From the NCBI GenBank assembly GCA_947584415.1, contig CANPWN010000003.1:1-64000 (forward strand): DNA of 64,000 nt, read 5' to 3'. Positions 3,679 to 11,521 of this stretch are shown in pieces; the first letter of the stretch is position 1, and each line of letters starts with the position of its first letter. This stretch comes from an uncultured Clostridia bacterium. Its GTDB lineage: Bacteria; Bacillota; Clostridia; Christensenellales; UBA1242. The position numbers and the translations under genes are program-made. The notes below the pieces were generated by a model that saw nothing but the letters and a program-made list of their open reading frames with translations, made no database searches and was not told the origin of the DNA.

Positions 3679-5037
3679 ATGAAAACAAATTTGTGGGAAG
3701 CGTATCTAATAAAAAGAGACGAAGTTGAAACTTTTTGTGATGGTTACAAAAACTTTTTGTCTTCTTGCAAGACTGAACGCGAGTGCATCAAATACGCTGT
3801 TAAACAGGCAAAGGCGCACGGATTCAAAAGCCTAAATGACCTAATGAAGAAAAACGGCAAACTTAAGCCGGGTGACAAAGTCTATGCCATCAATATGGAC
3901 AAAGCCATTGTTTTGTTTGTTGTCGGCAAACAGCCTATTGAAAACGGCATCAATATTGTTGGTGCGCACATTGACAGCCCTAGGCTTGACCTTAAGGCAC
4001 AGCCACTGTTTGAGAGCCAAGGCTTCTGCATGCTTGACACACATTACTATGGCGGAATCAAAAAATATCAGTGGATTGCAATGCCTCTCGCTGTGCATGG
4101 AGTTGTTGTGAGAAAGGACGGCACGAAAGAGGATGTTGTGTTTGGGGAAGATGGGCCTGTGCTTGCCATAACCGACCTTTTGCCTCACCTTGAAAACAAG
4201 GAGAAAGAAGACAAGAAGGACATCAAAGGAGAAGATTTAAATTTGATTGCTGGCAATATCCCTCTTGCTAAAGCAAAAGAGGACAAAGTTAAAGCCTTCA
4301 TCTTGAACATTTTGAAGGAAAAGAACATTTCCGAGGACGACCTATTCTCTGCAGAACTTGAAGTTGTGCCTTCTGGAAAGGCGCGTGACTGCGGACTGGA
4401 CGGAAGCATGATTATTGGCTACGGCCATGATGACCGCGTTTGTGCTTACACTGCCCTTCAATCATTGTTCACTGTTGAAAAGCCAGATGTAAGCACCGTT
4501 TGTCTGCTCGTCGACAAAGAAGAAATTGGCTCTGTTGGTGCAACCGGCATGGAGAGTATGTATTTTGAAAACGCACTCGCCGAAATTATGAACCTCTGCG
4601 GACAATACAACGAACTTTCTCTTCGCCGCACTCTCAACCGCTCAAAAATGCTTTCGAGTGATGTCACCGCAGCGGTCGACCCAATCTATGTTGACCCTTA
4701 CAATGTCCAAACTGATGCTCACCTGTCGCATGGCATAAGTTTCAACAAGTTCACTGGTCACCGCGGAAAATCAGGAGCAAATGACGCAAACCCTGAGTTT
4801 ATTGCACATCTGCGTGCCTGCCTAGACAAAGCGAACATCAGATATCAAGCCACCGAAATGGGCAAAGTTGACCAGGGCGGCGGCGGAACAATTGCCTATA
4901 TCATGGCAAAATATGGCATGGATGTTATAGATGCCGGCGTTCCAGTATTGAGCATGCACGCCCCATGGGAAATTGTAAGCAAGGTTGATGTCTATGAAAC
5001 TTTCCGCGCCTACCAAGCCTTTTACAATATGAAATAA
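3679..5037 (+). CDS. M18 family metalloaminopeptidase (aminopeptidase 1 group)
   Basis: 452 residues, full length for the bacterial aminopeptidase-1 branch of M18. Metal-binding and catalytic blocks are intact: GAHIDSPRLDLK near residue 95, YGHDDRV, DKEEIGSVGATGM near residue 275 (catalytic and bridging acids) and VLSMHAPWEIVSKVD near residue 428. The family removes N-terminal residues from peptides in the cytoplasm using two zinc or cobalt ions, as homododecamers. It is preceded by TATAAT at 3655-3660 and SD AGAGGTG. A second, divergent M18 paralogue lies at 44336-45562. Confidence 0.92.
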   Translation: MKTNLWEAYLIKRDEVETFCDGYKNFLSSCKTERECIKYAVKQAKAHGFKSLNDLMKKNGKLKPGDKVYAINMDKAIVLFVVGKQPIENGINIVGAHIDSPRLDLKAQPLFESQGFCMLDTHYYGGIKKYQWIAMPLAVHGVVVRKDGTKEDVVFGEDGPVLAITDLLPHLENKEKEDKKDIKGEDLNLIAGNIPLAKAKEDKVKAFILNILKEKNISEDDLFSAELEVVPSGKARDCGLDGSMIIGYGHDDRVCAYTALQSLFTVEKPDVSTVCLLVDKEEIGSVGATGMESMYFENALAEIMNLCGQYNELSLRRTLNRSKMLSSDVTAAVDPIYVDPYNVQTDAHLSHGISFNKFTGHRGKSGANDANPEFIAHLRACLDKANIRYQATEMGKVDQGGGGTIAYIMAKYGMDVIDAGVPVLSMHAPWEIVSKVDVYETFRAYQAFYNMK

Positions 5038-5065: not shown

Positions 5066-7066
5066 TTAGGTTGCAGCAGTGAAACCTTTGTTTTTGAGAT
5101 ATGTTTCAACGGATGTCGTTGTGGCGTGATTGCCCGCCCACAAATTCCATCGTAATGCTGGGTAGCCTTCATTCAATGTCGCTCCGCATATCCATTGGCT
5201 GTCTGTAAAACCTGTGTAATAATTTTTTATAGTGGCAGTTTCAACCGTGTTTGACATATAGACACCAGCGTATGTATTGGTTGAAGACGTTGATTTATTC
5301 CAACACAAATCTGCAATGGTTGGAGCATAAACCGGGTGACCTTGAAATTGCACGTTCAGATTGTGGGTATATTGACATGTTCCTCTAAATGATGAATCCG
5401 TCACCGTAATTTTTGTGCCAGAGCCCTGACTTACAGCAAATATCGCAGTTGGCGTGTCAATTCCGCCGCTCACAACATTTCCAACAATTTCGACTTGGGA
5501 TATGTTTATATTATTATATCCTGAATCCATAACAAGCACGGCCACAGGCTGAGGGTCGCTTGAACCGCTCGTTGGCGTATTGTTGTTTGTCAGAGAACAA
5601 GTGATATACATATTTTTGAAGTTTGAGCTTATAAAAGTAGTCCCCGCAAATGAAATGGATTGGGTGTTATCACAAGATAAGTTCCAATTTAAAATATTTA
5701 AGTTTTGTATTGTCCCCCATATTTGGTCAATAAAATGTGCTGCATTGAAGTTTTGTATGATATGCCCCTGCCCATCAAATGTGCCACGGAACTCTTTGAT
5801 AGGTGTCCAAGTCTTGCCTGTGAAATCTATGTCCTTGTCAAGGAAAAATTTATCCGACGTGGAAAATGTCCCGCCCGCATTTGTGAAATCTGACATCGCT
5901 TGAAGCCCTGTGAAGTCGGTGATGTGATAACCATCTGTCTTTTTTGTTATGCCGGGATATTTGCTGAGATTGCTGTCAAAAGGCACAGCTGGATGTGGGT
6001 CATAGTTTACAGTGACCACTGGGCGTATTCCTGGAACAAGAGATGATGGGCTATAACTGTCAGAATCCCACACACCCTGAAAATTGATGGTTGCAAAGCC
6101 ACCATGAGTCCAATATGGAGCGGTAAGCTGGCCAAAAAAATTACAATATGCACCATTTCCAATAGCAAAATCAGAAACTATTCCCAGCGGCCCATAAAAA
6201 TCGGAACCACTCGTATACTGAATACTTAAAAAATAATCCGATTTAGACCCCATATCAAAGTATTCACTATCGAAGTCATCTAAACAACTCGCATTGCAAG
6301 ATACATGTGTCTCCAAAGTATCCTGCAAAGAATATATAAACATATCTAAAAACATATTGACATATTCATTATAACCTTCTTCGAAAGGAAGCCCTCCCAT
6401 CAAAATTGTGTTTGAGATAAGTTTGATGGTTGTTAATGAAGTGCAATTGTCTGGATTTGTGCCATCAATCACCCAAAATATGGCTGGCTCAACTTTAAAC
6501 CACTTTATATCTCCATCTGCTCCCTGGAATTCAAGTGCCCCACTCCCAGCATAAGCATGAGCAGCCCCATCGCTTTTGTTCAATTTTTGTGCTCCACGAA
6601 CATAAAAATCTCCATTGTATTCGTATTCCCACCAGAGATAACTATCATCAAAGCCATTCAAAATATAATCGCTTCCGGGATATCCCATACCGGTTTCAAT
6701 CATCTGTCCTGCCTGATATTCTGCCTCAAGTATGTCATTCATAGCATTTCCAACATAGGTCTGCGGATACCTGCCAAGATAAGTATAGTGATATGTGACA
6801 TTGTTAATCGTTTCCTTATACCAAGTCATGTTTGGTGGAAAGGTAGGCCAGCCGGCTGCGGTTATTGTGGATGGAGATGAAGGCGTTGCAAAAAGATTTG
6901 AAATGTTTGGAAAACAAAATAATGACAATATAAAAGCCAAGGCTAATGAAAAAATATTTTTCAAAAGGCTTGGCTTATTTTGAAAATGTGGATAACTTTT
7001 AGTTAGGCAGTAAGGTTGCCCCCCCCCCGGTGGGTAACAAAATGTTGCATTATTCCCTCGCTTCAA
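5066..7066 (-). CDS. Exported surface protein with GLUG-like C-terminal region; G10 tract near its start
   Basis: The frame is open for 666 codons. A signal peptide begins at the TTG at 6964 (KNIFSLALAFILSLF, then ISNLFA before the mature TPSS). The N-terminal half resembles the DUF6273-type domain of gut Clostridia, ending GIRPVVTVNY. The C-terminal half contains FRGTFDGQGHIIQNFN, typical of GLUG/adhesin repeats. No LPXTG motif or membrane anchor is seen. Start choice is open: TTG 7066 lacks an SD. An ATG at 7050 has GAGGG four bases upstream but is one base out of frame because of a run of ten G (7028-7019). With 11 or 8 G it would join this frame, so the gene looks phase-variable. Confidence 0.7.
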   Translation of the reverse strand: MKRGNNATFCYPPGGGQPYCLTKSYPHFQNKPSLLKNIFSLALAFILSLFCFPNISNLFATPSSPSTITAAGWPTFPPNMTWYKETINNVTYHYTYLGRYPQTYVGNAMNDILEAEYQAGQMIETGMGYPGSDYILNGFDDSYLWWEYEYNGDFYVRGAQKLNKSDGAAHAYAGSGALEFQGADGDIKWFKVEPAIFWVIDGTNPDNCTSLTTIKLISNTILMGGLPFEEGYNEYVNMFLDMFIYSLQDTLETHVSCNASCLDDFDSEYFDMGSKSDYFLSIQYTSGSDFYGPLGIVSDFAIGNGAYCNFFGQLTAPYWTHGGFATINFQGVWDSDSYSPSSLVPGIRPVVTVNYDPHPAVPFDSNLSKYPGITKKTDGYHITDFTGLQAMSDFTNAGGTFSTSDKFFLDKDIDFTGKTWTPIKEFRGTFDGQGHIIQNFNAAHFIDQIWGTIQNLNILNWNLSCDNTQSISFAGTTFISSNFKNMYITCSLTNNNTPTSGSSDPQPVAVLVMDSGYNNINISQVEIVGNVVSGGIDTPTAIFAVSQGSGTKITVTDSSFRGTCQYTHNLNVQFQGHPVYAPTIADLCWNKSTSSTNTYAGVYMSNTVETATIKNYYTGFTDSQWICGATLNEGYPALRWNLWAGNHATTTSVETYLKNKGFTAAT
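7019..7028 (-). repeat. Homopolymeric G10 tract (C10 on the + strand) at the 5' end of a surface-protein gene
   Basis: Ten consecutive G on the coding strand. They lie between an SD-preceded ATG (7050) and the signal-peptide region of the 5066-7066 gene. Such tracts change length by slipped-strand mispairing. In this sequence the ATG frame closes after 15 codons; one added G opens it. Confidence 0.75.
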
Positions 7067-7085
7067 ATATCAAAATGTGGATATC

Positions 7086-7114
7086 TTTACATTATTATAA
7101 ACAAATTAAGTCAA
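7086..7114 (-). promoter_or_regulatory. Candidate promoter of the exported protein
   Basis: On the minus strand TTGACT (7114-7109), 17-bp spacer and TGTAAA (7091-7086). This would place the transcript start about 25-30 nt before the ATG at 7050, leaving room for the GAGGG SD. Confidence 0.4.
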
Positions 7115-7168
7115 AAAACAAAATAAATTGGAGGAAAATTCTATTTTTCTTGCAAAATTGCTAAAATA

Positions 7169-10597: not shown

Positions 10598-11521
10598 TTA
10601 TGGCGAAAGTTTTGTGATTACAATGCTGACAAGTTCGCTCGCAAAATAGGAGTTTGTGATTGTTTTTGTGATGTCTATGCCGCTTATGTATATGGAACTT
10701 TGATTTAAGTTGACAAGTTCATATTCTATGTTCGCATCCTCGACCACAAAAACACCTTGGCCGAACATTGTGCGCGGAACAGTGGCATTACTATACGAAT
10801 TCGCCGCAGCGAAAATTTGCTCAGAGCCGACAGGCCGAAAACCTATTGCCACAAAATCAGTCTTTTGGCTGAAAGGCACAGACGGAGTGACATAGGCGTT
10901 TGCAGAAAAGAAGATGTTATAAACCCCCGTGTCCGCAAATTTGATGGTGTTTTGGTCACTGTCAATTGAGATGAACTCACCGTAATTGGTCTCAAGTCTC
11001 ATAAGTGGCAGTCTGCCGCCACTTTGAATTTCTTTGCCATTTTCCGGAAAGCCAAGCGGGTCATTGTTGTAAGACGCAATAAAGGCAGATTTGATTTCAT
11101 AAGGGCCCGTTGCACCTCGTGGCCCGCGTGGACCTTCTGGACCAGCCGGACCAACCGGACCTGGAAGGCCGTCTAGCCCTGCGGGGCCGACATCTCCTCT
11201 GTCGCCTTTCTCTCCGGAATCACCCTTTTCTCCTTTCTCTCCGGGGTCACCCTTGTCACCTTTGTCACCTTTCGGACCTTGCGGGCCTGTAGGACCGGGC
11301 GGACCCGGAATTAAAGTTTCCTCAGTGGGTGTCACAACAGGCGTGGGCGGGGGCAGATTTGGAGTTGGGTCAAGCGGTGCAGGCGGAGTGAAAGGTTTTG
11401 GAAAAATTCCCTGTGCAGAGGATGATGATTTCTGCTCAAATCTAAGCGCTGAAAAATTGACAAAAGGTATGGCGCAGCCGCCACAAATTCTGCAAAATTT
11501 TGGCTTGCAATCACAAAACAT
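10598..11521 (-). CDS. Collagen-like repeat protein with BclA/C1q-like C-terminal domain
   Basis: 307 residues. An N-terminal Cys-rich start ([14 protein letters not shown]) and a Pro-rich linker lead into about 24 uninterrupted Gly-X-Y triplets (residues roughly 73-143, with [19 protein letters not shown]-type blocks). These are followed by a ~160-residue beta-rich domain containing [17 protein letters not shown], typical of C1q/TNF-like trimerising heads of exosporium BclA proteins. There is no classical signal peptide, as in several Bacillota collagen-like proteins. Likely forms surface or spore-coat filaments; the location is inference. The start ATG sits at the base of a perfect hairpin that contains the SD. 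Confidence 0.85.

Follow-up and report, generated by a model that had tools for sequence, protein, structure and literature searches.

Phase variation driven by repeats is known above all from Neisseria, Haemophilus, Campylobacter and Helicobacter, and in Neisseria and Haemophilus it includes switches in promoter spacers and switches made of tetranucleotide repeats. Promoter-spacer and tetranucleotide switches of these two genera are treated in two papers (PMC5320596, PMC2651432). In Campylobacter jejuni, poly-G tracts of eight or more bases are reported to mediate switching, and the phasome of this species consists mostly of tracts of 9–12 G that occur at many loci per genome, the majority of them in ORFs (PMC6321876). 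The system described here is reminiscent of the C. jejuni phasome in its tracts of mostly 9–12 G, its many loci per genome, the placement of most of them in ORFs and an ON/OFF state that is set by the reading frame. It is unlike C. jejuni in that it belongs to an uncultured, small-genome member of the Clostridia, concerns one exported paralogue family with a single 5' cassette that includes out-of-frame stops, and has relatives in which promoter-spacer tracts are about as frequent as ORF tracts. The principle is already known from C. jejuni and other bacteria. A literature search returned no report of repeat-driven phase variation for the present uncultured Clostridia lineage, and as far as the literature was searched the novelty lies in the lineage, in a single switch cassette that a large family of exported proteins has in common, in what appears to be a change of switch type from one species to another, and in the pairing with DnaA boxes.

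The window, which is the whole 64,000-nucleotide (64 kb) stretch of DNA that was analysed, contains a single G or C run of seven or more, a G10 on the minus strand at 7028–7019 that reads as C10 on the plus strand (7019–7028). The minus strand carries, in 5' to 3' order, TATAAT, ATATCCACA, GCGAGGGAA, the ATG at 7050, 19 bases, the G10, CAACCTTACTGCCTAACTAAAAGTTATCCACATTTTC and a signal peptide. The features of the locus, all on the minus strand, are listed from the promoter onwards:

7116–7121, minus strand: inferred -35-like element TTGTTT, placed by inspection
7094–7099, minus strand: -10-like element TATAAT (TATACT in most paralogues), placed by inspection
7076–7084, minus strand: ATATCCACA, resembling a DnaA box, within what is presumably the 5' untranslated region; most paralogues have TTATCCACA here
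7055–7059, minus strand: Shine-Dalgarno-like GAGGG (7059 to 7055) inside the conserved GCGAGGGAA, from the sequence and paralogue comparison
7048–7050, minus strand: ATG start of the predicted ON product (661 aa with G11), placed alike with respect to the tract in most paralogues
7019–7028, minus strand: G10 tract, the proposed switch, OFF with 10 G; 11 G would bring the ATG into frame (sequence and frame translation)
6996–7018, minus strand: conserved CAACCTTACTGCCTAACTAAAAG, with TAA in both wrong frames directly 3' of the tract
6987–6995, minus strand: TTATCCACA, a perfect DnaA box, located 3' of the tract within the coding leader, from the sequence and the paralogues
6886–6967 (limits approximate), minus strand: signal peptide LLKNIFSLALAFILSLFCFPNISNLFA, identified by inspection, with residues conserved in paralogues
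5066–7018, minus strand: downstream frame of the exported protein, 650 codons including the stop

The frame that opens at the ATG comprises 15 codons with the ten G of the assembly, 16 codons with nine and 661 codons with eleven, and at all three off lengths considered (G9, G10 and G12) it ends within 15–17 codons. A change of one unit at this locus thus shifts the frame, by which expression would be altered. A first-pass annotation had described the G10 behind GAGGG and the ATG, the 15-codon frame and the entry into the exported-protein frame with 11 G, and re-reading of the sequence confirmed each of these. It had also stated that the starts already in frame are TTG codons that lack a Shine-Dalgarno sequence; this too was borne out, as TTG codons at 7066 and 6967 are the only kind present with G10, and inspection found no Shine-Dalgarno sequence before 6967. 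The upstream codon is not conserved, the paralogues having TTC or CCC at the position of TTG 7066, which weakens the annotation's own counter-case of conserved TTG initiation. Translation could in principle begin at TTG 6967, in frame just 5' of the hydrophobic segment and present in most copies, in which case the tract would be irrelevant. Such downstream initiation is very unlikely, however, as besides lacking a Shine-Dalgarno sequence it leaves behind a conserved 5' region that has a Shine-Dalgarno sequence, an ATG, approximately 90% mean pairwise identity among paralogues over the 48 bases 3' of the tract, and a leader peptide, FVTxxxGGGxPY, that is recognisable in another species.

Slipped-strand phase variation at the G tract is the best explanation of this arrangement, with a probability of roughly 0.9, and the G run very probably serves as a slippage-driven on/off switch of exported-protein genes. 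It is proposed that the tract is a translational contingency switch in which slippage of the DNA polymerase gains or loses one G. One length in three (11 at the window) would connect the Shine-Dalgarno sequence and ATG to the exported-protein frame, and at the remaining lengths translation would halt within about 15–17 codons at conserved stops. Both slippage in living cells and the loss of the protein in the OFF state are what we infer from the sequence. Loss of MutS was considered as a cause and rejected, as MutS is present in 40 of 41 genomes including this one; slippage therefore need not be extreme, and a normal repair background is assumed.

The window forms part of a 0.90 Mb (903 kb) genome assembled in 21 contigs. 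A search of this genome with the window protein, together with reading of the loci, identified 15 gene bodies paralogous to the window gene. All 12 paralogues with an assembled 5' end carry a tract of G10–G12 at the identical site, and when judged against the conserved ATG five are ON and seven OFF. The tract lengths and states of these copies, named by contig and, where needed, position, are:

ON with G11: C6, C7:3210, C9, C10 and C14:23434
OFF with G10: C3 (the window), C1:98596, C1:27248 and C12
OFF with G12: C1:47270 and C14:25488
OFF with G11: C13:9110, which has an extra base before the tract and would need 10

C20 is a fragment that carries the promoter and a G10. The downstream ORFs are uninterrupted in every copy, the seven OFF copies included, and span 391–977 codons. 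The remaining three gene bodies lie at contig ends: that on C13 starts immediately 3' of the tract and those on C16 and C7 about 50 bases further, whereas contig C11 terminates within a family tract. Contigs that end in or at the tract, as C11 and C13 do, are what a mixture of lengths or the identity of the repeats would cause. A related-loci scan that used the exported protein gave no matches, and with AsnRS as the query it grouped the genome with uncultured gut Clostridia.

These lengths are the consensus of a draft assembly, in which runs of ten or more G are error-prone and errors of ±1 are possible at G10. As 11 is the ON length of most copies, the true length might be fixed at 11 and the gene always on, an assembly error that the first-pass annotation had itself named as a case against phase variation. 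This is very improbable, since the paralogues of a single assembly differ in length (G10, G11 and G12) and the 11 G of C13:9110 leave that copy out of frame. A fixed length would also leave unexplained the uninterrupted GGG codons of every copy, the out-of-frame stops and the promoter-spacer runs of relatives described below. The annotation's proposal that slipped-strand phase variation acts on an exported protein is supported by the spread of lengths and states, as well as by the intact OFF ORFs, the GGG-only glycines, the out-of-frame stops and a tract at the corresponding place in another species.

In some copies the OFF state may be incomplete. C7:3210 has an additional upstream start in another frame, and a TATACT box lies downstream of the tract, a few bases 5' of a second start codon, in C1:27248 (L057) and in the homologue of another species, G047 (L148). 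Second starts and a possible downstream promoter could therefore make OFF leaky in these copies.

Long runs are far more frequent than chance would allow. The 903 kb contain 14 G or C runs of nine or more, as against about 0.6 expected from a first-order Markov model trained on the window, and 13 of the 14 lie at one place in one gene family. The remaining one is a G9 in an isochorismatase-like ORF (L023, C1:35558) that is in frame as assembled. All 14 tracts lie on contig minus strands and none on plus, although contig orientation should be arbitrary. The glycines encoded by the tract in the ON frame are all GGG, a codon with a 15% share of glycine codons across the family, so that three in a row would be expected from codon usage at about 0.0035 per locus. 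In nearly all copies TAA follows in both wrong frames straight after the tract. The excess of runs, the GGG-only glycines and the wrong-frame TAA codons together argue that the run itself is maintained at the level of the DNA and not by selection on the protein.

Intact ORFs in OFF copies, and the ability of homopolymers to make a polymerase or ribosome slip, are also compatible with programmed transcriptional or ribosomal slippage, which would yield a steady fraction of in-frame product at any DNA length. Known cases of programmed slippage, however, mostly involve A/T runs, no stable RNA structure was detected at the switch (z-score 0.49), the lengths are spread over 10–12 and not fixed, and relatives have such runs in promoter spacers where the frame is irrelevant; programmed slippage is hardly probable at all. 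A further alternative takes the G run and its flanks mainly as a site of recombination, at which gene bodies are exchanged downstream of one shared 5' cassette, and draws on the contrast between the flanks, with their nucleotide identity of about 90%, and the gene bodies, whose protein identity is only 25–44%. Recombination alone leaves the frame logic, the out-of-frame stops and the spread of lengths unexplained and as the main role of the tract is improbable, but recombination and frame switching could coexist. Given phase variation by frame, the sharing of one 5' cassette by 15 or more members of the family in a 0.9-Mb genome implies that cells in one population would display differing subsets of the family. 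If so, one consensus genome per species conceals a variety of surface proteins within the population, and OFF genes would be mis-started by standard annotation.

The comparison of tract lengths among related genomes that the first-pass annotation had proposed as a check revealed a G9 at the same place in G047, in a homologue of approximately 30% identity. By inspection of the frame this copy is OFF with nine G and would be ON with ten, and its leader, LVTQGGGEPYSICDNCPQNN, is recognisable beside the FVTKCHRGGGQPYCLTKSCPQNK of C1:27248. The two homologues in a further species, G052 (L068 and L143), are without the G tract, which is therefore not universal in the family. Instead, a GAGC repeat sits in their promoter spacer, which extends from TTGACT to TATACT and measures 18 bp in one homologue and 22 bp in the other, and it looks as though the same family is switched here at the promoter. 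Control of this one protein family appears to rest on a G tract that acts in translation in some species and on a promoter tetranucleotide in another, and in this respect it differs from the switches of Neisseria and Haemophilus. The likeness to those genera lies in the G runs and GAGC or GGCT repeats found between -35 and -10 in relatives, which by analogy would act through spacer length. The shared 3' flank pattern was absent from the other genomes of the genus save for one match with three mismatches in G012 that may be due to chance, and it had no match in viral contigs.

Genomes with G runs of nine or more number 85 out of 101 for the genus, 89 out of 118 for the family, where they represent 35 of the 42 genera sampled, and 71 out of 101 for the order, where they represent 58 of 74 genera. 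In a genus sample of 73 runs, 36 were situated in promoter spacers, compared to 2.4% for random positions; 26 of these separate a -35 from a -10 element of the same strand, and the other 10 do so as C runs. Another 25 of the 73 were at or inside ORFs, several of which look like lipoprotein genes with the run directly 3' of the lipobox. Some runs of G or C in relatives within the genus lie exactly between TTGACA and TATAAT (e.g. L101, L105, L112, L118, L188 and L200), and G9–G12 tracts occur directly 3' of the lipobox in lipoprotein-like genes (L192–L194, L203, L205, L210 and L211). This distribution suggests that poly-G switches, placed in promoters as well as in reading frames and frequently serving exported proteins, are in use across an entire lineage of gut bacteria with small genomes.

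Every switch is flanked on both sides by DnaA boxes, perfect or nearly so, which in the window lie at 6987–6995 and 7076–7084, and the family loci carry a box at the promoter or start region. TTATCCACA is present in 36 copies in the genome, 21 of which are at family 5' ends. Three others belong to the intergenic cluster at C10:4299–4402, two lie ahead of a gene whose promoter spacer contains a GGCT repeat, one is upstream of ribosomal-protein genes and nine are elsewhere, mostly within coding regions. In G052 the boxes occupy the same two places, with four copies around each start region in L068 and L143, but the second box is read in a different frame (KLST versus SYPH), so that conservation concerns the DNA motif rather than the peptide. 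Since this second species retains both boxes with a switch of the promoter tetranucleotide type, the DnaA box may be more conserved than the type of switch. It is tentatively surmised, as a doubtful extension of the switch, that each gene has two layers of control: stochastic frame switching at the G tract, and putative DnaA boxes near the transcription start and first codons that either tie expression of the whole family to the replication initiator or titrate DnaA. If functional, the pairing would link surface-protein expression to chromosome replication.

Two of the TTATCCACA sites outside the family have features of their own. At approximately 137.4 kb on C1 (L141, about 3915–3990), (GGCT)4 is placed between TTGACA and TATACT together with a head-to-head TTATCCACA pair, and this gene possibly represents a second type of switch in the genome. 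The cluster at C10:4299–4402 lies next to hisS in AT-rich intergenic DNA, where three TTATCCACA are accompanied by one variant copy, and is a possible replication origin although dnaA is elsewhere (C4).

The window protein matched no Pfam model on its own, DUF6273 (PF19789) included, and gave only weak matches in NCBIfam. DUF6273 was matched by 8 of the 15 paralogues (best E 2.7e-24), and the N-terminal part of the window protein aligns with the paralogues that bear it. DUF6273 has been compared with the C-type lectins of phage binding proteins that are varied by diversity-generating retroelements (tentaclins, PMC10743442). The family resembles tentaclins in these eight matches and is unlike them in that expression would be switched here, in place of retroelement hypermutation, and in that the window protein itself is without a Pfam match. 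The C-terminal part is beta-helix-like, and its last 250 residues align with Bacteroides ovatus 3n6z by profile (E 2.3e-6) and by fold (E 3.6e-6), with low TM-scores of 0.23 and 0.38. 3n6z was named a 'putative IgA1 protease' by its depositors, but no protease domain was found in the window protein. The structure model has a mean pLDDT of 67, with residues 216–312 below 50, and being only partly confident it carries no fold claim for the middle part. Overall, the product would be an exported protein with a binding, surface or adhesin role. The window also encodes a collagen-like protein with GPxGPx repeats at 10598–11521, and a similar GPTGP protein is found at about 8 kb on contig C10 of the same genome.
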